Shown piece by piece: positions 30,045 to 51,621 of a stretch of 51,963 nucleotides of DNA. Under the pieces are notes generated by a model that worked only from the letters and a program-made list of their open reading frames with translations, was not told the DNA's origin and made no database searches. Within the stretch, counting starts at the first letter, position 1, and the number at the start of each line of letters is the position of its first letter. Made by a program: the position numbers and the translations under genes. Source of the DNA: a bacterium (GTDB taxonomy: Bacteria > UBP14 > UBA6098 > JAFGQG01). The stretch lies in contig JAFGGQ010000165.1 of the NCBI GenBank assembly GCA_016930435.1, positions 1-51,963 of the forward strand. Direction: 5' to 3'.

Positions 30045-32120
30045 TCAATTTTTAATCAATGCAATTTTTTCTTCCCGGTGGTAGCCTCTATATTGGGCGG
30101 AAACGATATAAATACCGTTTCCAAGGTATTTCCCGGAAGTATTTTGAGAGTTCCAGATGTAAGGATTATTAAGGTTCAAATCAACGTTTTTTTCAAAAAT
30201 CAGTTCCCCGGCGGTATTCCATATAAACAGGCTGAGATGATCATCAAAAATAGTATCGCAACTATCCTGATAAACCCCCACTGTTAAAGAATCACTGAAG
30301 GGATTAGGAAAGATATAGATTTTATGGTCCTGTATTCTATCGACAACGATAGTGGAGTCACGTACCATACTTGTATCACACATGGCTGGATGAATGAGTA
30401 TTTTCTGTGTTCCTTCCAGGCTAACTTTTTGGGTATCCGGCACATAACCTGGCAGGTCAAATACAAAGTCATAATCTCCGGCATAAGGGGTTGCCAGAAT
30501 GAACCTGCCCCTCTGGTCGGTATGGATGATTCCGGAGGTATCCTGATTATGGTAAATGATGAGTACATCATTCAGAGGGAGGTGAGAGAGTGAATCGGTA
30601 ACCTGGCCATATAAGGCGCCCCAGAGACCGGATGCGGCCATGGCATGGGGCCGTCCCCATCCGTAATCATTATCGGGATCGTAGTACTGGTCGGCGGTGA
30701 TCTGCAGGGTTTCCAGTAATGCCATTGCCGTAAGGGTATCATGGTCAAATGATGCTTGCAGTACCAAAGCTGCTGTTCCGGCTAACAACGGGGTTGCCAT
30801 GGAAGTGCCATTATTGGTTTCTATTTCCCGGCTTCCGGCGGGGGATGCACAATAGACCGCTATTCCCGGTGCTGTCAAATTTGGTTTGATGCGTCCGTCG
30901 GCAGTGGGGCCAGGGGAGGAAAAATAAGCATAGCCACCATCATTGTTGAGAGCACCTACTCCCATTACGCTGTCGCCATCCGAGGGAGCGATCAGATAAT
31001 GCCAGCTGGAGTTTCGTTCATTGCCAGATGCGGTTATAACCAGAACATTCCGGGACGCAGCAATGTCCGCTGCTATGGTGGTCAATGCCGTATTGCCATC
31101 CATATCCTGGTATGAGTACCCGGAATCATCATCGGAAATGCTATAACCCAGCGAGGTTGAGACTATATCCACTCCCAGGCTTTCGGCGACTTCCAGGGCT
31201 TTGATATAGCGGTCTTCCTCCTGCCAAACCGTTTCGGCAGCCACCGATTCGGTTTTGAAGAGGTAGTAATCGGCCAGATAAGCGGGTCCCACTATGGCTC
31301 CGGGCAGAAAACCGCCAAGCGAGGAAAGTACATTTGTGCCATGTGAATGCTGGTGCTGAGGTTCTCCCTCCTGGTTCTCAACTACGGAGTCACCCTGTAT
31401 AAAGTCCCAGGCGTAGATCACTCTTAGGCTATCGAATGCATTGTGAGGCAGCCAGAATCCGGTATCGAATACCCCTATCCTTACGCCCTGTCCTTTAAGG
31501 TTATAGGGGGGCTGGTGTGCGGGTGGAACACCCAGACTGTTAAGGTGGGGCAGGGAAAAGCCGTAAAACGGATCCTCGTCTTTTGATTTGTAAATTGATC
31601 TGGAGTCGCTGGAAAGGGGCAACCGGGCCCTGCGGGTAGTAAGCGGTCTGATTTCGTGAACAAACGGTAATTCCCTGATACCGGGCAAAACGGAAACCGG
31701 TATCTGGAAGGATGCCCCGTTAAGCCATCGGGACGTGCAGCGATGCCGGGCACCCAGCGATTCGATCCGGCTTATATACTCGGGGATAACGGGAAAATCA
31801 TAAAAGTCAAGTGTACCATTTTCTGTTCTACGCCGCCTTAATCTTGCCTGTTCGGAAATATATTCCCATGATTTTACTTTTTTGTCAAGATATTCCCGCT
31901 CGCTGAAAATGCCCTTGTCCGTGAAGAATACCCATACTTTCAGAATTTCTCCGGGGTCATCCGGTGGCTCGAAGGAGATTACTTTTTTTAGAGGGTTGCG
32001 AAACAAGACTATTTCCTTGCCCTGGTCGTAAATCACCAAATTATCCGGTTCTGTTTGGCCTGCAGCCAGTCCTGTCAATATGGCAAGGAGTAGTATAATT
32101 ATAAGCTTTGAGTAAGACAT
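30045..32120 (-). CDS. Subtilisin-like serine protease with C-terminal secretion-sorting domain
   Basis: From the ATG at 32120 the protein has 691 residues. A signal peptide (SKLIIILLLAILTGLAAG) precedes a proregion rich in Arg pairs (RLRRRRTENG). The S8 catalytic domain carries Asp219 (VFDTG), His260 (HSHGT) and Ser440 (GTSMATP), with the oxyanion Asn in ASGN. A carboxypeptidase-regulatory-like domain (about 500-570) and a C-terminal type IX sorting-like domain follow (FPNPFSDSLTVGV, then an Ig-like tail ending ALIKN). It should be exported to the cell surface. The ATG is 5 bases past the tsaE stop; the frame also has a GTG at 32132 overlapping tsaE, which would displace the signal peptide. 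Confidence 0.93.
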   Translation of the reverse strand: MSYSKLIIILLLAILTGLAAGQTEPDNLVIYDQGKEIVLFRNPLKKVISFEPPDDPGEILKVWVFFTDKGIFSEREYLDKKVKSWEYISEQARLRRRRTENGTLDFYDFPVIPEYISRIESLGARHRCTSRWLNGASFQIPVSVLPGIRELPFVHEIRPLTTRRARLPLSSDSRSIYKSKDEDPFYGFSLPHLNSLGVPPAHQPPYNLKGQGVRIGVFDTGFWLPHNAFDSLRVIYAWDFIQGDSVVENQEGEPQHQHSHGTNVLSSLGGFLPGAIVGPAYLADYYLFKTESVAAETVWQEEDRYIKALEVAESLGVDIVSTSLGYSISDDDSGYSYQDMDGNTALTTIAADIAASRNVLVITASGNERNSSWHYLIAPSDGDSVMGVGALNNDGGYAYFSSPGPTADGRIKPNLTAPGIAVYCASPAGSREIETNNGTSMATPLLAGTAALVLQASFDHDTLTAMALLETLQITADQYYDPDNDYGWGRPHAMAASGLWGALYGQVTDSLSHLPLNDVLIIYHNQDTSGIIHTDQRGRFILATPYAGDYDFVFDLPGYVPDTQKVSLEGTQKILIHPAMCDTSMVRDSTIVVDRIQDHKIYIFPNPFSDSLTVGVYQDSCDTIFDDHLSLFIWNTAGELIFEKNVDLNLNNPYIWNSQNTSGKYLGNGIYIVSAQYRGYHREEKIALIKN

Positions 32121-32125
32121 AATAT

Positions 32126-32572
32126 TTAACACCTGTCAATATTATTTAGGATTCTTATCTTTCGTTGGTCCCGGTGCAGCATTTCCAGATAGACCTCGAT
32201 CCGCCTTGGAGGCAGAAGGTTTCCGGCGCGGTCTGCCCATTCTATCAGGGTGATTCCGTCCCCGTAATAGTATTCTTCCAATCCTAACTCTTCCAGTTCC
32301 TTAAGGGAATTGATGCGGTAAAGGTCTATATGATAGACGGGGAATTTTCCGAGGTACTGGTTAATGATAACGAAAGTTGGGCTGGAGGGGGCTTCGGTAT
32401 TGAGTGCCGAACAGATCCCCTGCACGAAGGTAGTTTTCCCCGCACCCAGTTCGCCATAAAGGGCAATTATTGTTTTGGGTTTTAAAAGTTCGGCCAGCTC
32501 TGCTGCTATTTGCCGAGTTTCTTCGGGACTCCCGGAGATCAGCTCTCGTTCTATCAAGGTATCGGTTTTCAT
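32126..32572 (-). CDS. tsaE: tRNA threonylcarbamoyladenosine synthesis ATPase TsaE
   Basis: The 148-residue P-loop ATPase helps form threonylcarbamoyl-adenosine at position 37 of ANN-decoding tRNAs, with TsaB and TsaD (not in the window). It has Walker A GELGAGKTTFVQGI at about 40-53, SSPTFVIINQY and HIDLYRI. Length and motif order are normal. It starts 15 bp after the porX stop. I recall porX next to tsaE in Bacteroidetes genomes, which would make this an inherited pairing. Confidence 0.96.
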   Translation of the reverse strand: MKTDTLIERELISGSPEETRQIAAELAELLKPKTIIALYGELGAGKTTFVQGICSALNTEAPSSPTFVIINQYLGKFPVYHIDLYRINSLKELEELGLEEYYYGDGITLIEWADRAGNLLPPRRIEVYLEMLHRDQRKIRILNNIDRC

Positions 32573-32587
32573 TTATAAATATTCGTT

Positions 32588-34159
32588 TTAGCTTTTTGCT
32601 CCCTTTGGGGTCATCCTGATAACCGGGATGATCATCTCTTCCAGTGAAATTCCACCGTGTATGATGCTATTTTTATATTCCTGTTCGTACTTGCTGAAAT
32701 TAGATGGGTAAACGAAGAAGTAATCTTCTTTTGCAATAATATAAGTAGTGGACATTGAGAAGTCGGGCAGCTTGAACTCCTTAGGTTCCCGGATAATAAG
32801 TGCGTCCTTGGGTTCGGCATTAAGGTTACTGCCGTATTTATACCGGAGTGAAGATGATGTTCCCTTTCCCCCATAAGCCCTGGTTCCTCTTTGGCCCAGC
32901 ACACTGCCATGGTCGGTGGTCATCACGATCTCCAGATCGTCTCGCCGGGATAGCATCTTCAGGACTTCGAAGAAGGGCGAGTTATTGAACCATGCTTTCA
33001 TGATGTTCCGGTAAGCCCGATCGTCCGGCGAGATTTCCTGGATGACATCGGAATTCACCCGGGAATGAGCCAGTATATCCAGGAAATTGATGACCACCGA
33101 GGTTTGGGGGGCGGCGGAATAGGACTGCAGGTGCTTGAGCAAAAATTCCCCCTCCTGGGGATCCAGGATCTTGATATACTTTGTAGAACCCTCTACCGCA
33201 AATCCATTCCGTTCAAGTTGCTTGTCCAGTAATTGATGCTCGTAGCGGTTACGGCTCTGGGGGTCGGTAAAGGCATTGCTCCAGAGGTCCGGGTACTTCC
33301 GGGCCAACTCGGATGGGAATAAACCACTGAAAATAGCATTGCGGGAGAATGGAGTTGCCGTGGGAAGTAGGGAATAATAAAGATCGCGGTTGATATCATA
33401 ATAAGGATTAAGAAAGGGTTCAACGCTTAACCACTGATCCAGGCGCATACAGTCCACGACAATAAGAAAGGCTTTTTTCCCTTTCCGCATGATCGGGAGA
33501 AGGTATTTATCTACCAAATCGTTAGAAATGGTCGGTCTTTCCTTACTATAAAGCCACTTCAGGTAGTTCCCCTCAATATACTTCCCGAATTCAACGTTAC
33601 ATTCGCGGATAAAATCCCGATGGGATTCTATCAGACCAATCCCCGGATGTTCATCGAAAATAACATTCCATTCCGACAACCAATTTGCCAGATCGTACCA
33701 TTCCTCCGGTTCTGAAATGCTCTGCAAACCCATGAGATATTTACGGTATTCAGTGGTGTATTTCCTGGTTAGCTCGCCTTCTACGATAGTCCGCTGGTCG
33801 AATATCTTCTTCAGTGAGAGCAATATCTGGTTGGGATTGACCGGTTTAATGAGGTAGTCGGTGATTTCCCGGCCAATGGCTTCGTTCATCAAACCCTCTT
33901 CTTCGCTCTTAGTGATCATAATAATAGGGATATACGAATCTATCTTGCGCATTTCCTCAAGTGTAGTCAGACCGTCAAGCCCGGGCATCATTTCGTCAAG
34001 CAGGACTACATCATAGTTATTCTTCTCCAGCATTGCAAGGGCATCCCGGCCGTTGGAAGCGGGGGTTACCTGATAGCCCTTCTCCTCTAAAAAATAGATA
34101 TGGGGTTTCAGCTGAACGATCTCGTCATCGATCCATAGTATCCTTTTAAGCGTTTTCAT
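32588..34159 (-). CDS. porX: PorX-type response regulator with PglZ (alkaline phosphatase-like) domain
   Basis: The 523-residue protein has an N-terminal receiver domain (WIDDE, phospho-acceptor Asp55 in VVLLDEMMPGLDG, Lys in LIKPVNPNQ). A C-terminal PglZ domain of the alkaline phosphatase superfamily follows. Likely metal or nucleophile positions are Asp236 (VVDCMR), Thr267 or Thr269 (PTATPFSRNA), Asp361/His365 (DILAHSR) and Asp416/His417 (TTDHGS). PorX controls the type IX secretion system in Porphyromonas gingivalis. The ATG at 34159 has a GGAGGAG site and overlaps the kinase gene by 14 bp; an in-frame GTG at 34180 is unlikely. Confidence 0.93.
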   Translation of the reverse strand: MKTLKRILWIDDEIVQLKPHIYFLEEKGYQVTPASNGRDALAMLEKNNYDVVLLDEMMPGLDGLTTLEEMRKIDSYIPIIMITKSEEEGLMNEAIGREITDYLIKPVNPNQILLSLKKIFDQRTIVEGELTRKYTTEYRKYLMGLQSISEPEEWYDLANWLSEWNVIFDEHPGIGLIESHRDFIRECNVEFGKYIEGNYLKWLYSKERPTISNDLVDKYLLPIMRKGKKAFLIVVDCMRLDQWLSVEPFLNPYYDINRDLYYSLLPTATPFSRNAIFSGLFPSELARKYPDLWSNAFTDPQSRNRYEHQLLDKQLERNGFAVEGSTKYIKILDPQEGEFLLKHLQSYSAAPQTSVVINFLDILAHSRVNSDVIQEISPDDRAYRNIMKAWFNNSPFFEVLKMLSRRDDLEIVMTTDHGSVLGQRGTRAYGGKGTSSSLRYKYGSNLNAEPKDALIIREPKEFKLPDFSMSTTYIIAKEDYFFVYPSNFSKYEQEYKNSIIHGGISLEEMIIPVIRMTPKGAKS

Positions 34160-35456
34160 TTTTATTCTCCTCCAATTCACTTATGGGAAGTGAAATAACA
34201 AAAGTTGTCTTCTCATTGGGCTTGCTTTCCAAAAGATGAAGCTTCCCGTCATGATGTTGTTCGACAATTCTTTTGGCCAGGGAAAGTCCCAATCCCCAAC
34301 CCCTTTTCTTGGTCGTATATCCGGGCGAGAATATATCCTTCTGATATCGGGAGGAGATACCCTTGCCATTATCCTTCACAATGAAACATACGTTCTTTCC
34401 TTCCAGGTCTAATCGGGTTGATACTGATATTTCCCCGTTTTCGGGATCCACAGATTCAATGGAATTTTTGATCAGGTTTTCCAATGCCCACCGGAGCAAT
34501 TGTGCGTTACCCTTAACCATGGGCACCGGGTCGTATGACTCGGTAAGTTTAACATTTGCCTTCAGGGATGGTAGCCGTCCCCTTAAATATCGCACCACTT
34601 CACGGGCAATATTCGCCGGATCCACAGGATTGAGTTCCGGCGTGGAGCCGATCTTTCCGAAACGAACTACAATGCGGTTCAACACCTCTATATCATTGCT
34701 CATTTCCTCCAGGATATTATTCGGGGACAGGGATGAATAAGTTTTCTCAACTGCTTCGGCATCCTGTTGCCGGGCAAGGGTTTCCAGCTTTTGAATCCGT
34801 TCCTGGAGCAGTTCCATCCAACCCAGCAAGGAACTCAGCGGGGTTCCAAGTTGATGCGCAGTTTCACGGGCCATGCCAAACCAGATGTTCTGCTGCTCGT
34901 AAGATTTTAAGCGGCCGTAAAGAATGAAGCCGAAGATCAGAAAGATCACTACTAATACGATCTCAATAACAGGCAGTATCCTCATCCATTTTATAAAACG
35001 GGACTCCCCGAAGTAGATATACCCCAGGATCTCATTCGTTTCTCCAAGGTATATGGGTACAGGCTTGTTTTTCTTCTTGATGGAATCGATCTCTTTCTGC
35101 AGCTTTCGATCCATATCGCCGGGTGGGCTGTGATAATCTGCGGATAGGTTTCTCCAGGCCTGAACGTTGCCCTCAACATTGGTAAAAACCATGGGAAAAT
35201 CGCATTTCTGTATCACTTCCTCGAAGATGATATTGAGCTGTTCCCCTCCTCCCGACTGGGTCACAGCAAGTGCCCACAACCGTGCGTAAACGTTCACTAC
35301 CCGCTTGTTGTATTCAAGGATCTGCTCCCGGATCTCCCGGGTATAATAGAAGAAAAAAACCACCAGCAGTAGTATTCCCAAAAAAAGCAATATTTTATAA
35401 GTGATGGAAAACTTTTTGAAAACAACGCGGCTGCGATCCCTGAATCTTTTAGTCAT
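34146..35456 (-). CDS. Membrane sensor histidine kinase, probable PorX partner
   Basis: The 436-residue kinase has two membrane helices (about 17-38 and 157-181) around a periplasmic sensor of about 115 residues. The HisKA-like domain has His201 in ETAHQLGTPLSSLLGW, an H-box variant I associate with Bacteroidetes kinases. N, G1 (DNGKGIS) and G2 (GWGLGLSLAKRIVEQH) boxes are intact. The gene overlaps porX by 14 bp, so it is the natural partner of PorX and may correspond to PorY, though similarity to PorY itself was not tested. It begins 3 bp after serS ends. Confidence 0.93.
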   Translation of the reverse strand: MTKRFRDRSRVVFKKFSITYKILLFLGILLLVVFFFYYTREIREQILEYNKRVVNVYARLWALAVTQSGGGEQLNIIFEEVIQKCDFPMVFTNVEGNVQAWRNLSADYHSPPGDMDRKLQKEIDSIKKKNKPVPIYLGETNEILGYIYFGESRFIKWMRILPVIEIVLVVIFLIFGFILYGRLKSYEQQNIWFGMARETAHQLGTPLSSLLGWMELLQERIQKLETLARQQDAEAVEKTYSSLSPNNILEEMSNDIEVLNRIVVRFGKIGSTPELNPVDPANIAREVVRYLRGRLPSLKANVKLTESYDPVPMVKGNAQLLRWALENLIKNSIESVDPENGEISVSTRLDLEGKNVCFIVKDNGKGISSRYQKDIFSPGYTTKKRGWGLGLSLAKRIVEQHHDGKLHLLESKPNEKTTFVISLPISELEENKNENA

Positions 35457-41514: not shown

Positions 41515-44500
41515 TTACCTCACCAATACTACTGTCCCATTACATAAGGTCTTGCCCCCGATCTCCAGGTGGTAGATATAAATACCCTCCGGAAGAAGGT
41601 TACCCTGAGCATCGGTGCCATCCCAAAAGCGGAGATTATAATCCTTGATACTGCTGATAGGTCCCACAACTTTCTCCCTGACCTTAATCCCCCGAAGGTC
41701 GTATATTTGCAGATTTCCCCTTTCGAAGAACATACCCGGGTAGTCGAAGATCACGTAATCATTGTAATTATCCCCATTGGGAGTGAATGGATTAGGGTGT
41801 ATTCCGCAGGAATAGATACCCTTGACTACAAATTCACAGTAAAACGTGCTCCGGTTTGCTCCGCAGTACAGCGCCCTGTCTCCTGAACAAATAACTATCC
41901 GGATAGTATCCTCCTGCAAGAAGGTCAGTCCGGCTTCATCCGCCGATAATTCCAACTCTCCCTGATAAAGATTTGTTGGCCGCCAGAACACTCCGGGATG
42001 ATCCAGTTCAAAGCTGTCCCCGTTTAGGATTATTAGGATCAGGCTGGAATCCAAACCGGAGAGGCTGTCATATAGGAAAAATTTAAATTCCTTTGGTGGT
42101 CCCTCCACTATGCCCTGGTGAACAGGAAAGGCCAGTTCGGCTTCCGGTGGTTGGAAATCCAGGTAAAAATGCCAGGATAACGGTTGCGCCAAGCCATTGC
42201 CAGCCAGGTCCCGGGCCTCTGCTAAGGTTACTTCTACCCGCCCTGACTCCCGGAAATAATCGGTACAGGGCGCGAAAACCAATAAACTGCCCTGAGTCAA
42301 GGTGAGCATACTGTCCGTCAGGTCATAGTAAGCGCCATCAACATTCAGTACTATGGAGGATATATCAAGCCGGTTTTCATCATAAATGACTATTCTAATC
42401 TCCTGGTCGTTACATGAAGTAATAGTTCCGGGTGTTGGAAAAACCATGACGCCCTCCGGCCCCAGGGTGTCGTTTGGCTGTACACTCATAGTATCGATAA
42501 AATAAAAACTCCAGCAATTTGGGGGACTCAGTACCAGCGGTTCGCAATAATCCGGGTGGTTTTCCATAGCTTCAATACAAACACTAATCGAATCGCAGTC
42601 CCGGTAATGGAGGCCGGTACCCGTTAGGCTGTCAAAGGGGGGGGTGTAAAAAACACCCAGTGCGGTTTCATCCACGAAGCGCGGATCGAATCCCAGGGTT
42701 ATACCGTCCCACGAGATGGCCGGACTGTAAAGATCAAAGCTCAATGCGCTATCCACCGCAAGGAAACCCTCCAGCGATATCAATACAGTACCCGGATCGA
42801 TCCCCAGGAGATTATCCTGCAAATCCACGGTGATGACGTTCTGGGAATAATAGACCGTGTCCCCTTCCGGTGGATAAAAATTCTCTGCATAAGGCGCTTC
42901 CAGATCAAAATAGAAGGTCCATTCAAATGGCGTGTCCTCAGCGGTATTCCCCAGGGTGTCCTCAAGGCTCCAGAGGGTCGCCCGGATGGTATCAGAGCTT
43001 TGCCAGAACCCGTTCCCCGGAGCAAAATAGACAGTGTCGCCGGGATATGAAAAAGCAGCTTCCTCGCCAGCTAACAAGGTATCCCCAAATTGCAGGTGTA
43101 CAGAACCGGGCTCAATCCCATGCTCGGAATACAGGATAAATCCAACCCTTTGATCAAAGCAATTACTGGTTGTATTTTCCAAAGGAAAAAGCAGTTCAAA
43201 AAGGGGAGCGTGTGCGGTGATAAAGAAATACCAACAGCTATCTAATTGATTAGGGGGACAATAATGGGGTCGATCCTGTACCCGCAAGCAGACTTCTATC
43301 CTGTCGCCCCGTTCCCAATACAAACCGGCCTCGGTAGTATTTATCCGAAGCTGCTCGCCGTTCCAGTAGATACCTGATTCCCCGATAAGATATAGAATAC
43401 TGTCCACCCAAATCACCAGGGAGTCCGGATTTAACCCGCTCATAGAGTCGGCTAAAACTACCGTAATTTCCGGTGAAATGGAGTCTGCGAAAGTACCGTT
43501 CGCCGGATCCTCCCCCCACATCACGGGGGGTGAGAGGTCGATATAGAACTCCCAATCCGGTGAGGCTTCCAGGCTATTACCAAGTCTGTCCGCAGCCTCA
43601 ACCAAAATGACCCTGATTGTGTCCCCATCGGCAAAGGGAGCAGCCGGAAAATATCGGAGCAAGGTATCCTCGAAGACCAGTACGCTATCCGTAACGGTGT
43701 AGAAAATATCATTTACCTGCAGTAATATGGAACCAGGATCGATACCATTAGGGTCGAAGAGGGCCATGATGATTTCCTGGTGGGCGCAGGCGGAATAGGA
43801 ATTCCCCAGTGGTTCTATGATACTGGCCAGCGGCCCTCCCGCAGAAATATAGAAGTCCCAGCAGGTGAAAAGCCCATTGCCCCCACAGTAATCAGGTTGA
43901 TCCAGAGCCGAAAGACAAACCTCCACGGTGTCTCCCCCTGAAAAACTCAAAGCTACCGATTCCGGATGGAATTGAGCATAGTTACGGTTGCAGGATATGG
44001 GATTTCCGGGATGGTCGATGCGGTATTCGATACGGTTGATCAGGAAGGTAATGGAAGTGGTGTCGATACCAGACAGATGATCCGTAAGGGAGCATGAAAC
44101 GGTGGGGGTCAATTCTGCAATAATACTGCCGGAGGAGGGGTCTTCACACCAACTTACCGGCGGCGAAAAGTCCATTATAAAGGTGAACAGCAGTGGCGCT
44201 TCCAGGTGATTACCCAGTATATCTTCAGCGCTGGACAAATTGACCATAATCGTATCACCATCGCTCCAGGTTCCGGCTTCAGGCCTGAAGACCAGGAGTG
44301 GTTCATAGTAGCTTAAAAATTCATCGGAGACAGAATACGGGGAACCTGCTACCTCGAGCAAAATAGTGGAGTCCTCCAGACCATTAGGATCGGTAAGCTG
44401 TATTTGGATGGTTTGGGTATCACATGCGGAGAAAGCCATGTTAAATGGTTCCAGGAGTTCCGCCTCCGGGCCGCCGCTTTGAACGAAGACCTGCCAGCAA

Positions 44501-47500
44501 GTATCAAGGTTATGTGGTTCGCAGAGGTCGGGGTCGTCGGCTGCATGGAGACACAAGCGCAGGGAATCGCCTCCCCTTAAGATAATACCGCTGCGGCAAA
44601 GGTCAAAACTGTAATTCATACCGTCCCAGAATACCGCAGGGGAACCGGTGCTGAAACTGAATGTGTCCGCATTGAGAATAATGCTCCATTCCGCCAGTCC
44701 GGAAAAAGAATCGGCAATTTGAAATTCGATAACAGGACATACGGTTGTAAGGGTATCCCCGGCACCGGGACTCAGCGCGCTCATAAATGGGGGGCTAAGG
44801 TCGATATAAAAACTCCATGAATAGGGCGCTGCCTCCAAAGGATTGCCCAGTACATCCTCGGCCTCCAGAAGCCGGATGTGAAGGGTTTCACCGTCCGTCC
44901 AGGTCAGGGACGGGCTGAAGAACAGGGTATCTCCAATAAAGGTTAGTTCGGCATCGGTGATATGGAATAATCCGGCGTTTACCTGGAGTTCGATAGTACG
45001 GCTCTCTACCCCCTCCGGGTCTTCCAGCACCAAATAAAATCCCTGGTCATTGCAAGCGCTGTAAATGCCCGTCGCCGGAAAATGGGAGGTTACTATCGGG
45101 CCGCCCCGGGCAATATAGAATTGCCAGCAAGTATCCAGCGCATTCGGGTCACACAGTTGGGGTTGGTCAAATGCCTGCACGCAGACAAGTATAGTATCCC
45201 CGCCGGAGAATTCCAGCCCGGCTAAATCGCAATCAAAATAGTAGCCGGAATCTGTACGGTTAAAAAAGGATTCGCCCAGATCATATTCACTATGATTAAT
45301 CGATAAAAGAGCGGACTCGGCCATTACACCGCTGATATCGTCGATTAACTCAAAACTGAGCAAGGGAGAGATCGAGGTGATAACCTCCCCGGTTCCGGGC
45401 CAGTTGTTTATCATTACCGGTGGCGACAGGTCTATGATCAGGTCCCAGCTATAATAATCATCGAGAGCATTGCCGAGAGAATCATACGCATATAAATAGT
45501 AAATAACAGTATCGGCATCGCGAAAGAATCCGGCAGCAGGCTGAAAGAGCAATGTACCGCTGTCCCAATGGAGGAAGGGGGAAAGTATGCTGAAGCTTCC
45601 GTAATCATCGATGTTCAAGATAATGGACTCGGAATCGATGCCGTGAGAAACCGGGTTATCAGCGATTGAAATGCGCAGTGCCTGGTTACTGCAAGCGCTG
45701 ATTGCCCCGACATCCGGGAAGAGCAGTTCTGCATAAGGGCCCAAAAGGTCAACATAGAATCGGTAGCAGTACTCCCCCAGATTCGGTTCGCAGAGGTCCG
45801 GCAGGTCATATATACCCAGGCAGATTGTCACGGTATCATTGTGTGATAAGGGCCTGCTTGCCGAAATATAATATGTGATTGTAAGCTCACTATAGTCCCG
45901 GGATAATGAAAGGGATTCGGCAGGCACCTCAACGCCGTTAATTAAGAAGTATTCAATGCTATCGCTGATCCCGGCAATAGAATCGGTCAGGGTCAGTGAG
46001 ATACGTGGAAGGCTATCGGCGATTACAGAGTTCTCCAGAGGGTTATTAACGATCACCGGTGGATCAAGGTCGATCAGCACTTCGATGTAGGGATGGTCCA
46101 TCAGCGGATTACCATAAAGATCGTTCGCGCTTAACAACATAGCCCGAACAGTATCCCCGCTGTTCCATGGGCTGGAGGGCGTAAAAATCAGGGAGTCGCC
46201 CCGCCACAAAAGCTCCGGATCAGATACCCGGAATATATCCCCGTTTACCTCCAGCCGTATTGTGGAATCCATAATGCCATCCGTATCATGGATAAAGAAC
46301 ACCAAATGCTGATAGGGACATCCGGAGACCAAACCGGGTTCCGGGAAGAGTGCTCGGGCCTCCGGGCCCTGAAGGGTAACATATATGCTCCAGCAGGTAT
46401 CTATACGATTCGGTGCGCATTCATCCGGAACATCCTCCCCGTGAATGCAGACTGATACGGATTCTCCATCGAAGAATTCACGGGCCAATATCTCAGTATT
46501 CAGCGTGAAGTGGGGTGCGGCCCAGGTTACACCCGGGCTGTAAATATAGAAATTTGTACTGTTAATGGTCAACACTGTTTGATAGGATCCCAATCCGCAG
46601 CCGCTATCGGCGATATTGAAGGAGAATTCCGGGAAGCTTGTGGTTACCAGACCTTCGGGTTCGCAGTTCCAGATCACGGGCGGATCGAAATCGATATAGA
46701 AGCTCCAGCTCAATCCGGCTGCGGAGGTGTTCCCGTAAATATCGGAGACCTCCAGCATGATTACTATCACGGTATCCAATGCTGCCCATAAAGCCGGTCC
46801 CGGGTCGAAGACCAGCGTATCGCCATGAAGGCTTAAAGAGCTCATACTGAGGTTGAAATTGACCCCGTTAACCTGGAGGTTGATACTGGTAGTATCCAGA
46901 GGTGATGGATCCTGTATGAGCAGGCGGATCTGTTCGTTCCGGCAAGCGCTGTAGATATAGGGTTCTGGCGCCAACCGCGTGATTACGGGGCCCCGGTAAT
47001 CAACATAGAATTGCCAGCATAGGGCTTCCCGTATATCGTTGGGGCCGCAATAAACCGCTGCTACATTGTCCGCGGCATGTAGCACACAAACCCTTGTAGT
47101 ATCCCCGTCAGGCAGCAGTATCCCGGCGCTGTCCGGGTGAAAATGCCAGTGTCCGTCGCTGTAAAATACCCCTGCATCAGAGGTGGTATATATGCCCTCA
47201 TTTATCTGAACTACTATGGTAGCAGGGTCCACCCCGGAAGGGTCGTCTGACAGATCGAAGCTGATACTCTGAGTGGAGTCCAGGATGAGAGAACCGCCAG
47301 GCGGATAGGTATTAAAAATATGGGGTGGAAGAAGGTCCATTACGAAACCGGAACTTATTCCATGTACCATTTCACAGCCATCGATATCATCGGCCTGAAG
47401 GAGAGTAAAGGTTACCGTATCCCCATGTCCGAATGGTGTAGCCGGTTGAAAGAAAAGCGTATCGGGGTCGAACCACATATTTGCGGGATAACGGTAATTG

Positions 47501-48732
47501 ATACCGTTCACTCTCAGCCGTATAGAGAGTGTATCGATCCATACATCAGAGGCCAGGACAATGCTTATGATCTGTCTGTCGCAGGCCACGAATACTCCTT
47601 CCGGAGTGGGTCTGATCAGGCGGGGGACCGGGCCGGAGCATTCGCATAAAGGCATTACCAGTTCGCCTTCGAACTGTGCGCCGCAATCCTTGTAGTTCAG
47701 GTAATCCAGGCAGCGTATCAAGAATGTATCTGCCCAGGTAGCCCCCGGTTCAGGCTGAGTGGGAAAGGCGGTATGATAATCGAAATCCTGACCGGAAAGG
47801 ATTATCCGGCCTTCTTCGTCGTCGCAATCCTTATCCAGAGCCAGTATTGAGGCATAAGAGGGGGCAAGGGGCATCACTGTAAGAACATTGTAAGCGGGGT
47901 GCCAACTGGTGAAATAGGTATGACAGGAGATATTCCAGTGAGATATCCGGTCATCATTAAGGTCATTTCCTCCGCCTATACCATCAGCGCCGGTAATAAT
48001 TATATGGCTGGCATCTAAAACCCGGTTGACGTCATAATCCAATCCGATATCGGTAACCGGCAGGGGTACCCAATCGAAGCGTCCGGTGCGCAATTGTCCG
48101 CTAACCAGGATACGGCCGCCATCCCGCCACCAGTCTTCTATATCAGCGGCCCGGGCCAGAAGGGCATTATGCGTTTCATTGGACATGTGCCAACCGACAA
48201 AAAGAATGCCATAATCGTTCAGATCGACGCCATAAAAAGCGGCAGGGGTTACTATGGTGTAATCATAATCAACGATATCAAGCGCTAAATGGGTATATCC
48301 GTCGGGGGAATCAAGAAGGAGTATCCGATTATTGATGATGCTGGAAACCCCTCCGACCTGAATGGTATATTCAATTGTTTCCCCGGCGCAAACCCGTTCA
48401 GAATAGATGCGCCAATTTGCCCCCCTTTGTACCCCCGGATACATATTGCCAATATACCTGGGATTATCCCCGCTATCCACATAGGCGCAGGCCGTATGGA
48501 GCTCAAGCAGAAAATAGACATCACGGAAAGTCCATGGGGAGATGTTTCTCACCGTTACCCCGAAATCGAAGGGATTAGGATAAAAATCGGGGCCCACGCA
48601 AAAAACGCTGTCATAAATCACGTTAATGCTGAAATCGGTGGGTGGCAGCGCCTGGGGTGAACCTTCCCGGGGCAGGGCAAATATCAGCAGCATCAAGATC
48701 AGTAAAAAAATGTCCCTATTAACTCTATTCAT
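41515..48732 (-). CDS. Giant secreted protein with nine paired Ig-like repeats and a gliding-type C-terminal domain
   Basis: From the ATG at 48732 the protein has 2405 residues; a TTG six codons earlier also keeps the frame. A signal peptide (RDIFLLILMLLIFALP) leads to an N-terminal domain. Within it, about residues 150-320 look like a GATase1/ThuA-type fold (NDYGILFVGWHMS, GGRILVSGQ, GRIILSGQDF). Nine tandem dimodular repeats follow (about 370-2304), about 215 residues per pair. Each A module has one Cys (SAC-like) and each B module three, C-x9-C-x7-C in six of nine. The C-terminal domain, NPFTPNGDNYND to the end, matches the gliding-motility/type IX sorting style. A cell-surface adhesin-like role is inferred. 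The 901-residue gene diverges from its promoter. Confidence 0.9.
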   Translation of the reverse strand: MNRVNRDIFLLILMLLIFALPREGSPQALPPTDFSINVIYDSVFCVGPDFYPNPFDFGVTVRNISPWTFRDVYFLLELHTACAYVDSGDNPRYIGNMYPGVQRGANWRIYSERVCAGETIEYTIQVGGVSSIINNRILLLDSPDGYTHLALDIVDYDYTIVTPAAFYGVDLNDYGILFVGWHMSNETHNALLARAADIEDWWRDGGRILVSGQLRTGRFDWVPLPVTDIGLDYDVNRVLDASHIIITGADGIGGGNDLNDDRISHWNISCHTYFTSWHPAYNVLTVMPLAPSYASILALDKDCDDEEGRIILSGQDFDYHTAFPTQPEPGATWADTFLIRCLDYLNYKDCGAQFEGELVMPLCECSGPVPRLIRPTPEGVFVACDRQIISIVLASDVWIDTLSIRLRVNGINYRYPANMWFDPDTLFFQPATPFGHGDTVTFTLLQADDIDGCEMVHGISSGFVMDLLPPHIFNTYPPGGSLILDSTQSISFDLSDDPSGVDPATIVVQINEGIYTTSDAGVFYSDGHWHFHPDSAGILLPDGDTTRVCVLHAADNVAAVYCGPNDIREALCWQFYVDYRGPVITRLAPEPYIYSACRNEQIRLLIQDPSPLDTTSINLQVNGVNFNLSMSSLSLHGDTLVFDPGPALWAALDTVIVIMLEVSDIYGNTSAAGLSWSFYIDFDPPVIWNCEPEGLVTTSFPEFSFNIADSGCGLGSYQTVLTINSTNFYIYSPGVTWAAPHFTLNTEILAREFFDGESVSVCIHGEDVPDECAPNRIDTCWSIYVTLQGPEARALFPEPGLVSGCPYQHLVFFIHDTDGIMDSTIRLEVNGDIFRVSDPELLWRGDSLIFTPSSPWNSGDTVRAMLLSANDLYGNPLMDHPYIEVLIDLDPPVIVNNPLENSVIADSLPRISLTLTDSIAGISDSIEYFLINGVEVPAESLSLSRDYSELTITYYISASRPLSHNDTVTICLGIYDLPDLCEPNLGEYCYRFYVDLLGPYAELLFPDVGAISACSNQALRISIADNPVSHGIDSESIILNIDDYGSFSILSPFLHWDSGTLLFQPAAGFFRDADTVIYYLYAYDSLGNALDDYYSWDLIIDLSPPVMINNWPGTGEVITSISPLLSFELIDDISGVMAESALLSINHSEYDLGESFFNRTDSGYYFDCDLAGLEFSGGDTILVCVQAFDQPQLCDPNALDTCWQFYIARGGPIVTSHFPATGIYSACNDQGFYLVLEDPEGVESRTIELQVNAGLFHITDAELTFIGDTLFFSPSLTWTDGETLHIRLLEAEDVLGNPLEAAPYSWSFYIDLSPPFMSALSPGAGDTLTTVCPVIEFQIADSFSGLAEWSIILNADTFSFSTGSPAVFWDGMNYSFDLCRSGIILRGGDSLRLCLHAADDPDLCEPHNLDTCWQVFVQSGGPEAELLEPFNMAFSACDTQTIQIQLTDPNGLEDSTILLEVAGSPYSVSDEFLSYYEPLLVFRPEAGTWSDGDTIMVNLSSAEDILGNHLEAPLLFTFIMDFSPPVSWCEDPSSGSIIAELTPTVSCSLTDHLSGIDTTSITFLINRIEYRIDHPGNPISCNRNYAQFHPESVALSFSGGDTVEVCLSALDQPDYCGGNGLFTCWDFYISAGGPLASIIEPLGNSYSACAHQEIIMALFDPNGIDPGSILLQVNDIFYTVTDSVLVFEDTLLRYFPAAPFADGDTIRVILVEAADRLGNSLEASPDWEFYIDLSPPVMWGEDPANGTFADSISPEITVVLADSMSGLNPDSLVIWVDSILYLIGESGIYWNGEQLRINTTEAGLYWERGDRIEVCLRVQDRPHYCPPNQLDSCWYFFITAHAPLFELLFPLENTTSNCFDQRVGFILYSEHGIEPGSVHLQFGDTLLAGEEAAFSYPGDTVYFAPGNGFWQSSDTIRATLWSLEDTLGNTAEDTPFEWTFYFDLEAPYAENFYPPEGDTVYYSQNVITVDLQDNLLGIDPGTVLISLEGFLAVDSALSFDLYSPAISWDGITLGFDPRFVDETALGVFYTPPFDSLTGTGLHYRDCDSISVCIEAMENHPDYCEPLVLSPPNCWSFYFIDTMSVQPNDTLGPEGVMVFPTPGTITSCNDQEIRIVIYDENRLDISSIVLNVDGAYYDLTDSMLTLTQGSLLVFAPCTDYFRESGRVEVTLAEARDLAGNGLAQPLSWHFYLDFQPPEAELAFPVHQGIVEGPPKEFKFFLYDSLSGLDSSLILIILNGDSFELDHPGVFWRPTNLYQGELELSADEAGLTFLQEDTIRIVICSGDRALYCGANRSTFYCEFVVKGIYSCGIHPNPFTPNGDNYNDYVIFDYPGMFFERGNLQIYDLRGIKVREKVVGPISSIKDYNLRFWDGTDAQGNLLPEGIYIYHLEIGGKTLCNGTVVLVR
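41821..47628 (-). repeat. Nine tandem coding repeats (A+B Ig-like modules) in the giant gene
   Basis: Each unit is about 645 bp. A modules run from a Pro-rich start through ...IxLQVNG...DTLxFxP...W.DGDTV...A.D..GN...FYID..PP. B modules run through SGID..S...IN...GGDTV.VCL.A.DxPDxCEPN.LDTCW.FYI. The nine B-module endings (each with CW or CY) were counted directly. Boundaries are approximate to about 20 bases. Confidence 0.85.
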
Positions 48733-48767
48733 AATATCACCAAATATCAACTATTACCAATTCGAGA

Positions 48768-48795
48768 AATATACTAATTTTTATTGACTTGTCAA
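48768..48795 (-). promoter_or_regulatory. Promoter of the giant gene, back to back with a plus-strand -35
   Basis: On the minus strand TTGACA (48790-48795) and TATATT (48768-48773) are 16 bp apart, with the expected start near 48761 and a leader of about 29 bases. A plus-strand TTGACT (48784-48789) abuts the -35, forming the palindrome TTGACTTGTCAA. A plus-strand -10 is weaker, and another candidate lies nearer the Cys-rich gene. Confidence 0.6.
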
Positions 48796-48915
48796 TTGAA
48801 ATCACTTTGATAAAATTAATCAGTTTTTTAGCGGTGCTTTTTAAAAAATTGAATAGACAAAGATTAAAAAAAGTCTAATATTGATTATTATTCCAATTTA
48901 ACGAGGAGGAAAGAT

Positions 48916-51621
48916 ATGGGATCAAAAGCTTATTTTAGGGTATTAATTCAAATCACGCTGGTTTTTATTTTTGCATGCGGAGCACTCTGGGGACAGGATC
49001 ATGAACCACCCTGTATTAACTGGGAGTATCCCTTTATGGGGGCATATAACGTCCCTATTGACTCAACCCTGTCGCTCAGTATATGCGGATTTTGCCGGGA
49101 AGAGGAGGCCACTTGGGTGGATCCCTCCACTATCAATTTATGGCTCACGCCTACCGGGGATACCACCTTTTCACTCGACCTGGTCTTTGATTATGAGCCT
49201 GTCTGGTGCATGGGTTACAGTATCACCTTTATCCTTAATCGAACATCTGGAATCCCAGTCGGTGAAGAGGTCGAAATCTGTGTCAGCGCAATGGATTCAG
49301 CGGGTAATTTGGGCATGGATTGCATCTTCTTCACCATCGCTGATACCGGAGGCCCGGTAGATACCGTGGATACCGAACCCCCTTGCTTCTCTGAAAGCTA
49401 TCCACATTCTGGAGCAGCTAACATCCCCGTGAATACCGATGCCAATATAAACATCTGCGGAATCTGCGGGTCAACTCCTCCTACCATGGTGGATTCATCG
49501 AGTATCTTAATCGAACACTTTTTGATCACCGATACGGTACTTTCCCTGGGACTTCTGTCCCGGACCCTTGAACCCAACCGCTGCATGGGTTATTTTGTTT
49601 TTTTTGGTTTCGGGGAATCGCCATTACCTTATAATTCCAACATTATGATCTGTATTCAGGCCCGGGACATGGCATCCAATCTGGGTGAATATTGCTTCAG
49701 TTTTACCACCGAGGATTCCGGAGGGATTGCCGGACACCCCTGCGTAGAATGGCTGTACCCATCCGAAGGGGATACCGTTCTACCCGATATATCTTTACAT
49801 GTTGATATCTGCGGACTCTGCGGTGAGGATAGCCTCTATTCATCATGGATCGATTCGGCTTCTATCCTGCTCACGTACTACTATATCGCCGAGCATGAAG
49901 CGCTGGTGTTCACGGAGATAGAATGCATGGGCTATGCCGTGGAATACGACTTTTCGGGATGCACCCTGATGCCCGGCGAAGTGAATATCTGCATCAATGC
50001 CATGAATATGGATATGGTCCGGATCGTGGATTGCATCACTTTTTTTGTGAATGACACCAGCAGCGGCGACGATACTATCCCCCCCTGCGCCACCTGGAGA
50101 ATTCCGGCAGACGACAGCACCGTTTCTCCAACAACCGATCTGGTGATCGATATTTGCGGGGTGTGCGGCCCTGCCGGTCCGTCAACTATGGTTGACTCAT
50201 CATCCATCATACTTTCCCTGGAATACGATTCTGTTTTCACCGAGATCACCGGCTATTCCCTGGTTCCTATTTATTGCATGGGATATAGCGTTTACCACAA
50301 TTTCTCACGCCATCCCCTACCCTGGGATACCGATATAACCATCTGCATCCAGGTTGCCGACCTCGCCGGAAATTGGCTGGAAGAATGCCTTGATTTCCAC
50401 ACCGCTTCAGAGTCACACCCCGATTCATTGGTTACTATCATGCTTCATACCGTGGACGCCATGACCCATGAAGCCCTGCCGGGTATATTGGTATATGCCT
50501 GCCATTTTTATACCGGAAGCCTATCAGCAGCCGCCCTTAGCGGCTTGGACGGGATCACATCTCTGGAGGTCCCAGCCGGACCATATTTGCTGGGAGCCAA
50601 TGACCCCGACGGAAGATACTATCAGGAATTCTATTTCGAGGCGCACGATCCTGCCATGGCTAATGTTGTAGAGATCATTCCGGGCAGCGTGATTGACATA
50701 ACTTTCACACTGGAGACCATTACCGCCCTCTACGGGATCTCCGGCAGTATCATTGACGAAGCCCTGAATCCCGTACCGGGAGCCTTCGCCATAGTAGTAT
50801 CATCAGAAGAAGATGAGGATTGGACCAACACCGCACTCGCCGATTCCATGGGAAACTACCAGCTTTTTACACCGCCAGGGGAATACTATGTTATTGCTTT
50901 TTCACCGGGTTATATCCCTATCATCTACGATGCTGAATTCAGCTGGGAAAGCGCTACTCCCGTCATTGTAGATACTGCCCGGGTAAGCGGTATCAACTTC
51001 ATCATTTCGACATTAGATTACCTTACCGGAGATTCTTTGCGGTCCTTTATCCGGGGGGTCGTTTACGGGGATGATGATCCCCCGAGGAAATCAACGTATC
51101 CCTACATCCTTACCGGCGCCCGGGTCTATATCAAGAACATTATGAATCCTCTTGTCTGCTACGCTACCACCTTTACTGACGGTGCCGGAGAATTCCATTT
51201 TTCCGAGATACCTCTGGGGTCATATCTGCTGGCGATCGACAAGGTCTTTTATGAACCTTATGAAAGGGAAATAGAACTTACCGAAACGGGCTGGGAAGAC
51301 AACAATATAATCCTGATTAATACTACCGGAATCCAGGATGATAATATATTAGCCCCCGGGAAGTTGACATTGTTCCCAAACTATCCTAATCCTTATAATG
51401 CTTCAACGGCATTAACCTTTATTTTGCCACATGATGGCGAGGTCAGCCTGAAGGTCTATGACTTGCTTGGGAATGTGATCACTACGCTGCTTGAAGGCCG
51501 GTGTACTAAGGGTTTCTATTCGGTAAAATGGCAGCCGGATGAACTCGGCAGCGGATTGTATTTCGGGCGGCTGTCCGCAGGAGGCGAAACCAGGGCAATA
51601 CGAATCCTTTACATCAAATAG
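48916..51621 (+). CDS. Secreted Cys-rich protein with four Ig-like repeats and type IX-like sorting domain
   Basis: The 901-residue protein starts at an ATG with GAGGAGGAAAGAT. A signal peptide (about 1-26) precedes four repeats of about 115 residues (29-497). Each contains six cysteines: PPC or HPC, a CGxC pair (57/60, 181/184, 299/302, 414/417), CMGY, ICI/VxA and a final C before the last strand. Three carboxypeptidase-regulatory-like beta domains follow (about 505-600, 605-700, 708-802). The C-terminal domain (about 815-901, NYPNPYNASTALTF, then LKVYDLLGNVI) is the type A sorting style. The whole protein should be exposed on the surface. I know no homologue with this cysteine pattern. It diverges from the giant gene. 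Confidence 0.9.
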   Translation: MGSKAYFRVLIQITLVFIFACGALWGQDHEPPCINWEYPFMGAYNVPIDSTLSLSICGFCREEEATWVDPSTINLWLTPTGDTTFSLDLVFDYEPVWCMGYSITFILNRTSGIPVGEEVEICVSAMDSAGNLGMDCIFFTIADTGGPVDTVDTEPPCFSESYPHSGAANIPVNTDANINICGICGSTPPTMVDSSSILIEHFLITDTVLSLGLLSRTLEPNRCMGYFVFFGFGESPLPYNSNIMICIQARDMASNLGEYCFSFTTEDSGGIAGHPCVEWLYPSEGDTVLPDISLHVDICGLCGEDSLYSSWIDSASILLTYYYIAEHEALVFTEIECMGYAVEYDFSGCTLMPGEVNICINAMNMDMVRIVDCITFFVNDTSSGDDTIPPCATWRIPADDSTVSPTTDLVIDICGVCGPAGPSTMVDSSSIILSLEYDSVFTEITGYSLVPIYCMGYSVYHNFSRHPLPWDTDITICIQVADLAGNWLEECLDFHTASESHPDSLVTIMLHTVDAMTHEALPGILVYACHFYTGSLSAAALSGLDGITSLEVPAGPYLLGANDPDGRYYQEFYFEAHDPAMANVVEIIPGSVIDITFTLETITALYGISGSIIDEALNPVPGAFAIVVSSEEDEDWTNTALADSMGNYQLFTPPGEYYVIAFSPGYIPIIYDAEFSWESATPVIVDTARVSGINFIISTLDYLTGDSLRSFIRGVVYGDDDPPRKSTYPYILTGARVYIKNIMNPLVCYATTFTDGAGEFHFSEIPLGSYLLAIDKVFYEPYEREIELTETGWEDNNIILINTTGIQDDNILAPGKLTLFPNYPNPYNASTALTFILPHDGEVSLKVYDLLGNVITTLLEGRCTKGFYSVKWQPDELGSGLYFGRLSAGGETRAIRILYIK
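49000..50406 (+). repeat. Four tandem Cys-rich coding repeats
   Basis: Each unit is about 350 bp and encodes one module. The conserved positions are PPC, PV-type ends, DICGxCG, VDSSSI, CMGY and ICIxA..AGN...C. The pattern repeats four times, with a shorter third copy. Confidence 0.85.

Follow-up and report, generated by a model that had tools for sequence, protein, structure and literature searches.

The nearest described precedent that we found for the proteins of this locus is the HPI S-layer protein of D. radiodurans (PDB 8cka), which is likewise an array of divergent Ig-like domains on the cell surface. In HPI, a putative conserved disulfide, C554-C666, joins HPI5 to HPI6, and another lies inside HPI2 (PMC10120038). 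The GhpA grappling hook of Aureispira (PDB 9flu, 9fls, and 9g8b) is also a giant surface protein with tandem Ig-like domains. The Big_5 (PF13205) and CopC-like Ig domains share the broad fold of the modules described below, but the pairing of A and B modules and the cysteine couples are absent from the family description. The C-terminal tails encountered here are of the kind found on T9SS cargo of type A (TIGR04183) and type B (TIGR04131/CHU_C). In bacterial adhesins built of Ig repeats, stiffness usually comes from calcium, isopeptide bonds, or packing. Literature searches of limited reach retrieved neither a class-wide repeat with a staple recurring periodically between its domains nor anything relevant on disulfides that link the domains of bacterial Ig-like or T9SS proteins.

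The window analyzed here, i.e., the whole stretch of 51,963 nucleotides that forms contig C36 of genome G000 (2.85 Mb, 90% complete), contains two divergent genes for cysteine-rich proteins. The reading that we consider probable is that the large protein is a surface rod of stapled bricks that is exported by T9SS, that the small protein is a separate cargo, and that the adjacency of their genes is local. The large protein of 2405 aa (41515..48732, minus strand) was read from an ATG start at 48732, and the mechanical list of open reading frames gives an alternative TTG start at 48750, six codons upstream. A hydrophobic N-terminus is followed by ~340 other residues, nine A/B pairs of Ig-like modules of ~210 residues each, and a CHU_C tail. 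By profile and alignment of the pairs, pair 1 (residues 369-581) was placed at 46993..47631, pair 2 at 46369..46992, pair 3 at 45742..46368, pair 4 at 45103..45741, pair 5 at 44473..45102, pair 6 at 43837..44472, pair 7 at 43210..43836, pair 8, which contains insertions, at 42463..43209, and pair 9, in which B-Cys1 and B-Cys3 are displaced, at 41815..42462, all on the minus strand. The protein has 58 cysteines, of which 36 are regular (nine pairs with four each), and a cysteine share of 2.4%, compared to 1.0% in the cytoplasmic proteins of the window. Each A module contributes one cysteine within the motif SAC.DQ (residues 385, 598, 806, 1015, 1228, 1438, 1650, 1859, and 2108, counted from codon 48735), and each B module contributes three within the motif VC.A.D.PDYC.PN..DTCW (nine triplets, from 550/563/573 to 2283/2291/2300 in the same numbering).

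The C-terminal sorting domain of the large protein (41515..41811, minus strand; motif PNPFTPNGDNYND) scored above the cut-off of Pfam CHU_C (32.5 bits versus 27) but below that of TIGR04131 (20.9 bits versus 35), and for this reason we call the tail type B-like and go no further. The N-terminal region (residues ~26-368; 47632..48660, minus strand), which the first-pass annotation had left out, comprises a beta-rich stretch and then a conserved domain of ~220 residues. A full-length orthologue from genome G001 of the same family has the same nine pairs and is 47% identical overall and 56% identical over the N-terminal region. For this region there was no Pfam match, no PDB sequence match, and no second copy elsewhere in G000. 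By eye, its sequence (GGRILVSGQLR, GRIILSGQDFDYH) is somewhat suggestive of a glutamine-amidotransferase-like fold, which we mention as a lead only.

The small protein of 901 aa (48916..51621, plus strand) was delineated by its open reading frame and domain searches. It contains four six-cysteine Ig-like modules, of which modules 1 (48988..49350), 3 (49714..50061), and 4 (50059..50415) were placed by module alignment, while module 2 (49369..49722) was modeled by AlphaFold2 with a CopC-like Ig fold (mean pLDDT 77; Z 11.3 and rmsd 2.1 A over 96 residues of CopC). Pfam recognized a first CarboxypepD_reg domain at 50737..50928 and a second, CarboxypepD_reg-like domain at 51109..51309, and the C-terminal type A T9SS sorting domain (51382..51606) scored 28.3 bits with TIGR04183, above the cut-off of 23; all these features are on the plus strand. 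The six cysteines align across the four modules in the form PPC...ICG.CG...CMGY...ICI.A.D.AGN...C, with one extra cysteine in module 3, and residues 1-500 are 5.2% cysteine, compared to the same 1.0% in cytoplasmic proteins. Both the large and the small protein are strongly acidic and, by eye, begin with a hydrophobic N-terminus. The profile of the six-cysteine module gave strong matches in G000 and G001 only and weak ones elsewhere in the class, where some proteins combine A/B pairs with six-cysteine modules.

The two genes are separated by a 183-bp intergenic region (48733..48915), in which the promoter scan identified back-to-back promoter-like sites. Seven such sites were observed on both strands of the scanned stretch, versus 1.5 +/- 1.3 in shuffled sequences, and the best two, at 48795-48768 (minus strand) and 48789-48816 (plus strand), abut. 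Shared regulation of the two genes in G000 alone is therefore possible as judged from these sites. The first-pass annotation had described the nine pairs with four regular cysteines each, the four six-cysteine modules, and the shared 183-bp gap, and our analysis agrees with it on all three; its assignment of a type A-like tail to the small protein and a type B-like tail to the large one also held.

That annotation had gone on to propose a co-regulated apparatus, with the small disulfide-rich protein as a dedicated partner of the large adhesin. The divergent arrangement and the abutting sites favor such an apparatus, as does a gene with a CarboxypepD_reg domain and a type A tail located ~2.8 kb away on the contig of the orthologue. 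However, the 5' neighbors of the G001 orthologue are three genes on the same strand, encoding proteins of 396 aa (with NHL-like repeats, by eye), 376 aa, and 830 aa, the last of which is a type A-like cargo, similar to the second half of the small protein but devoid of the cysteine modules. In a survey of the 5' neighbors of 38 A/B genes, 11 of which were cut by the edge of the retrieved stretch, a six-cysteine neighbor was found once, at the window's own gene; none stood beside the remaining 37 A/B genes whose 5' neighbor lay in the retrieved stretch, and relatives thus carry one gene of the two, not both. In addition, G000 has about 100 sorting tails, so a chance adjacency of two cargo genes is likely. 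Most of the long arrays in the class with a known end terminate in tails of the form PNPFTPNGD...ND, as the large protein does. The split between type A-like and type B-like tails recurs in the class, and neighbors that differ in this respect are thus not special. A conserved gene pair is ruled out by the G001 neighborhood and the 38 5' neighbors; the adjacency is a chance or local feature rather than a conserved system, and we consider the dedicated partnership quite unlikely.

We analyzed the co-occurrence of the regular cysteines in the A/B pairs. The coupling set consisted of 616 distinct near-complete pairs from 92 proteins of 17 class genomes, aligned to the profile with the columns A17 (A-Cys), B184 (B-Cys1), B194 (B-Cys2), and B202 (B-Cys3); 607 of the 616 pairs have letters in all four columns. 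All four cysteines (CCCC) were present in 460 pairs and A17 and B194 only (C-C-) in 128, with few discordant states. A17 and B194 were both present in 596 pairs, both absent in 7, and discordant in 4 (596/2/2/7 for both present, the two discordant classes, and both absent; p=2e-13). The corresponding numbers for B184 and B202 were 468 with both, 131 with neither, and 8 discordant (468/7/1/131, p=2e-123), and the four cross combinations demonstrated no association (p 0.4-1). On a FastTree tree built with the cysteine columns masked, B184 changed 35 times and B202 39 times, and in 11 supported independent contrasts of B184, B202 changed the same way in 10 and the opposite way in 0 (p=0.002). A17 and B194 changed 7 times each, with 2.8 of 4 contrasts in the same and 0 in the opposite direction; this tree-corrected test falls short of significance because the couple is so rarely lost that there are too few events. 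In the six-cysteine modules, the same kind of table gave the couples C5-C6 (33/0/0/17), C1-C3 (17/0/3/30), and C2-C4 (23/7/3/17), and the shared motif order suggests that C5-C6 sits where B184-B202 sits in the B module.

These patterns make it most likely that the A/B unit is a brick of two domains that contains one disulfide between A and B and another inside B; we infer both the oxidation of the cysteines and the rigidity of the unit. The suggestion that the large protein is a disulfide-stapled multidomain surface protein is supported by the co-variation of the couples in 17 genomes, by the fact that the modules give no ordinary Pfam match, and by the plausibility of T9SS export. Alternatively, the four cysteines could bind a metal, e.g., zinc or iron, and form no disulfides at all. 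The habitat of the orthologue would suit this alternative, since its titled copy belongs to the MAG Zod_Metabat.733 and bins named in that series were recovered from the Zodletone spring, which is anoxic and sulfidic, and so would the fact that no known disulfide oxidase was found in the class (see below). However, a four-ligand site should lose all four cysteines, whereas the observed losses come in twos and the two couples are independent, which argues against such a site and renders metal binding very unlikely.

The location of the cysteines was assessed by an AlphaFold2 model of residues 25-789, for which the alignment comprised the orthologue and six further pair-tandems. The pLDDT was about 90 over four Ig-like domains (two tandem pairs), whereas it was ~30 over most of the N-terminal region. 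In the predicted secondary structure, A-Cys falls in the A-B loop, between the first and second main strands, whereas B-Cys1, B-Cys2, and B-Cys3 fall in strand F, the F-G loop, and strand G, respectively. In general Ig topology, a domain's A-B loop and the F-G loop of the domain that follows it face each other, and the predicted positions of A-Cys and B-Cys2 would for this reason fit a staple from A to B. The modules stand in tandem with both neighbors close in sequence, so the A cysteine might instead pair with B-Cys2 of the preceding pair and cross-link successive pairs. Nevertheless, all 36 isolated A/B pairs keep A17 and B194, and the pairs at either end of arrays almost always keep them too, which places the bond partner inside the pair; by the topology just mentioned, the predicted A-B and F-G loops should also meet only within A-to-B. 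We regard a link between pairs as highly improbable.

Compared with structures, the A/B tandem model matched titin, Robo, and GhpA fragments, among others, with Z 10.8 to 14.2 and large rmsd, and these matches therefore reflect the common Ig-tandem arrangement only. The GhpA fragments (Z about 10.8, rmsd about 13 over 324 residues) ranked among the closest structural matches of this kind but were tied with titin, Robo, and unrelated Ig tandems, and no sequence link between GhpA and the A/B pairs was found. HPI was the best PDB sequence match of the pair profile, although a weak one (E 0.007), and its cysteines are elsewhere in the domain; unlike B-Cys2, C666 sits before the F-G loop of the B domain. 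HPI has a single inter-domain bond, whereas the large protein would have one in each A/B pair, and lipoprotein anchoring is proposed for HPI (PMC10120038), as opposed to the T9SS route that we propose for the large protein.

The distribution of the A/B pair was analyzed by a profile search with 18 pairs. Every one of the 17 class genomes contained pairs, at 62 to 212 candidate places, of which 21 per genome were scored. The 128 genomes searched outside the class yielded a single marginal match (E 1e-12 or better) in each of two genomes. Both matches fall on generic Ig-like sequence that lacks the cysteines, and none of the 128 genomes showed the four-cysteine form; phage records gave no match to A/B pair 5. 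Among the sampled genomes, the four-cysteine A/B form is thus restricted to the class. Within the class, the cysteine pattern is conserved: the G001 orthologue keeps 47 of the 58 cysteines (81%), the top share of any residue (tryptophan, 78%; aspartate, 69%). There is scarcely any chance that the modules are ordinary Big_5 repeats with incidental cysteines. Big_5 does score 42.9 bits (cut-off 23.6) on the whole large protein, in one stretch at residues 586-684, and the fold of the small module is CopC/Ig-like, but only one of the 18 single pairs reaches E 0.01 with Big_5 and 17 do not, cysteine is the most conserved residue, and the two marginal matches outside the class lack it.

Many class genomes encode one giant protein each, with a length of 3800 to 4400 aa and 17 to 19 A/B pairs; those observed are located on G000:C131, G002:C54, G003:C49, G006:C76, G008:C86, G011:C35, and G015:C386. 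In several arrays of the class, the one or two pairs nearest the tail are without B-Cys1 and B-Cys3 and retain the A-B couple.

According to the mechanism that we propose, the large protein would be exported by T9SS as a rod of nine two-domain bricks. In each brick, the cysteine in the A-B loop of A would be bolted by a disulfide to the F-G-loop cysteine of the following B, and the second disulfide of B would tie strand F to strand G. The A-to-B junctions would then be locked and the B-to-A junctions free, yielding a string of stiff dumbbells. Because the rod ends in a type B-like tail, it would most likely be displayed or shed as a fibre-like component, such as an adhesin, a sheath, or part of a surface layer, and its biological role may be that of a stiff surface fibre or adhesin. 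The small protein would be a separate T9SS cargo drawn from the same Ig-like pool, and each of its modules would contain three disulfides (C1-C3, C2-C4, and C5-C6). If this is correct, a disulfide in every repeat pair, in ~600 copies across the class, constitutes a different route to a stiff surface rod, and the repeated brick is the building block of the giant secreted surface proteins of this uncultured class.

The export of both proteins by T9SS is plausible, because SprA, C25 peptidases, and PorX are present. SprA scored above the cut-off in 16 of the 18 genomes searched, including G000, and was not found in G001, the 89% complete genome of the orthologue; C25 peptidases were detected in all 18. 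The T9SS response regulator PorX (NF052313; 636 bits, cut-off 300) is encoded in the window at 32588-34180 (minus strand) and adjoins a histidine kinase gene (34146-35456, minus strand), ~7 kb from the large gene. None of VKOR, DsbB, DSBA, and Thioredoxin_4 was above the cut-off in the 17 class genomes, some of them incomplete, and the controls matched. A class of anaerobes might thus assemble many of its giant surface proteins from covalently stapled Ig bricks in periodic array and oxidize the cysteines without any of the known extracytoplasmic disulfide enzymes, which would imply that T9SS export is coupled to a way of forming disulfides that has yet to be described; we put this forward tentatively, as an unlikely explanation. 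The apparent absence of the known enzymes raises the question of how anaerobes in sulfidic water oxidize their secreted proteins. Two further genes of the window, both on the minus strand, were noted. A subtilase (30045-32132) with a CarboxypepD_reg domain and a weak type A-like tail is probably another T9SS cargo, and a MutL-family protein (PF13941; 26658-29423) is fused to an NqrA/RnfC-like barrel-sandwich domain.
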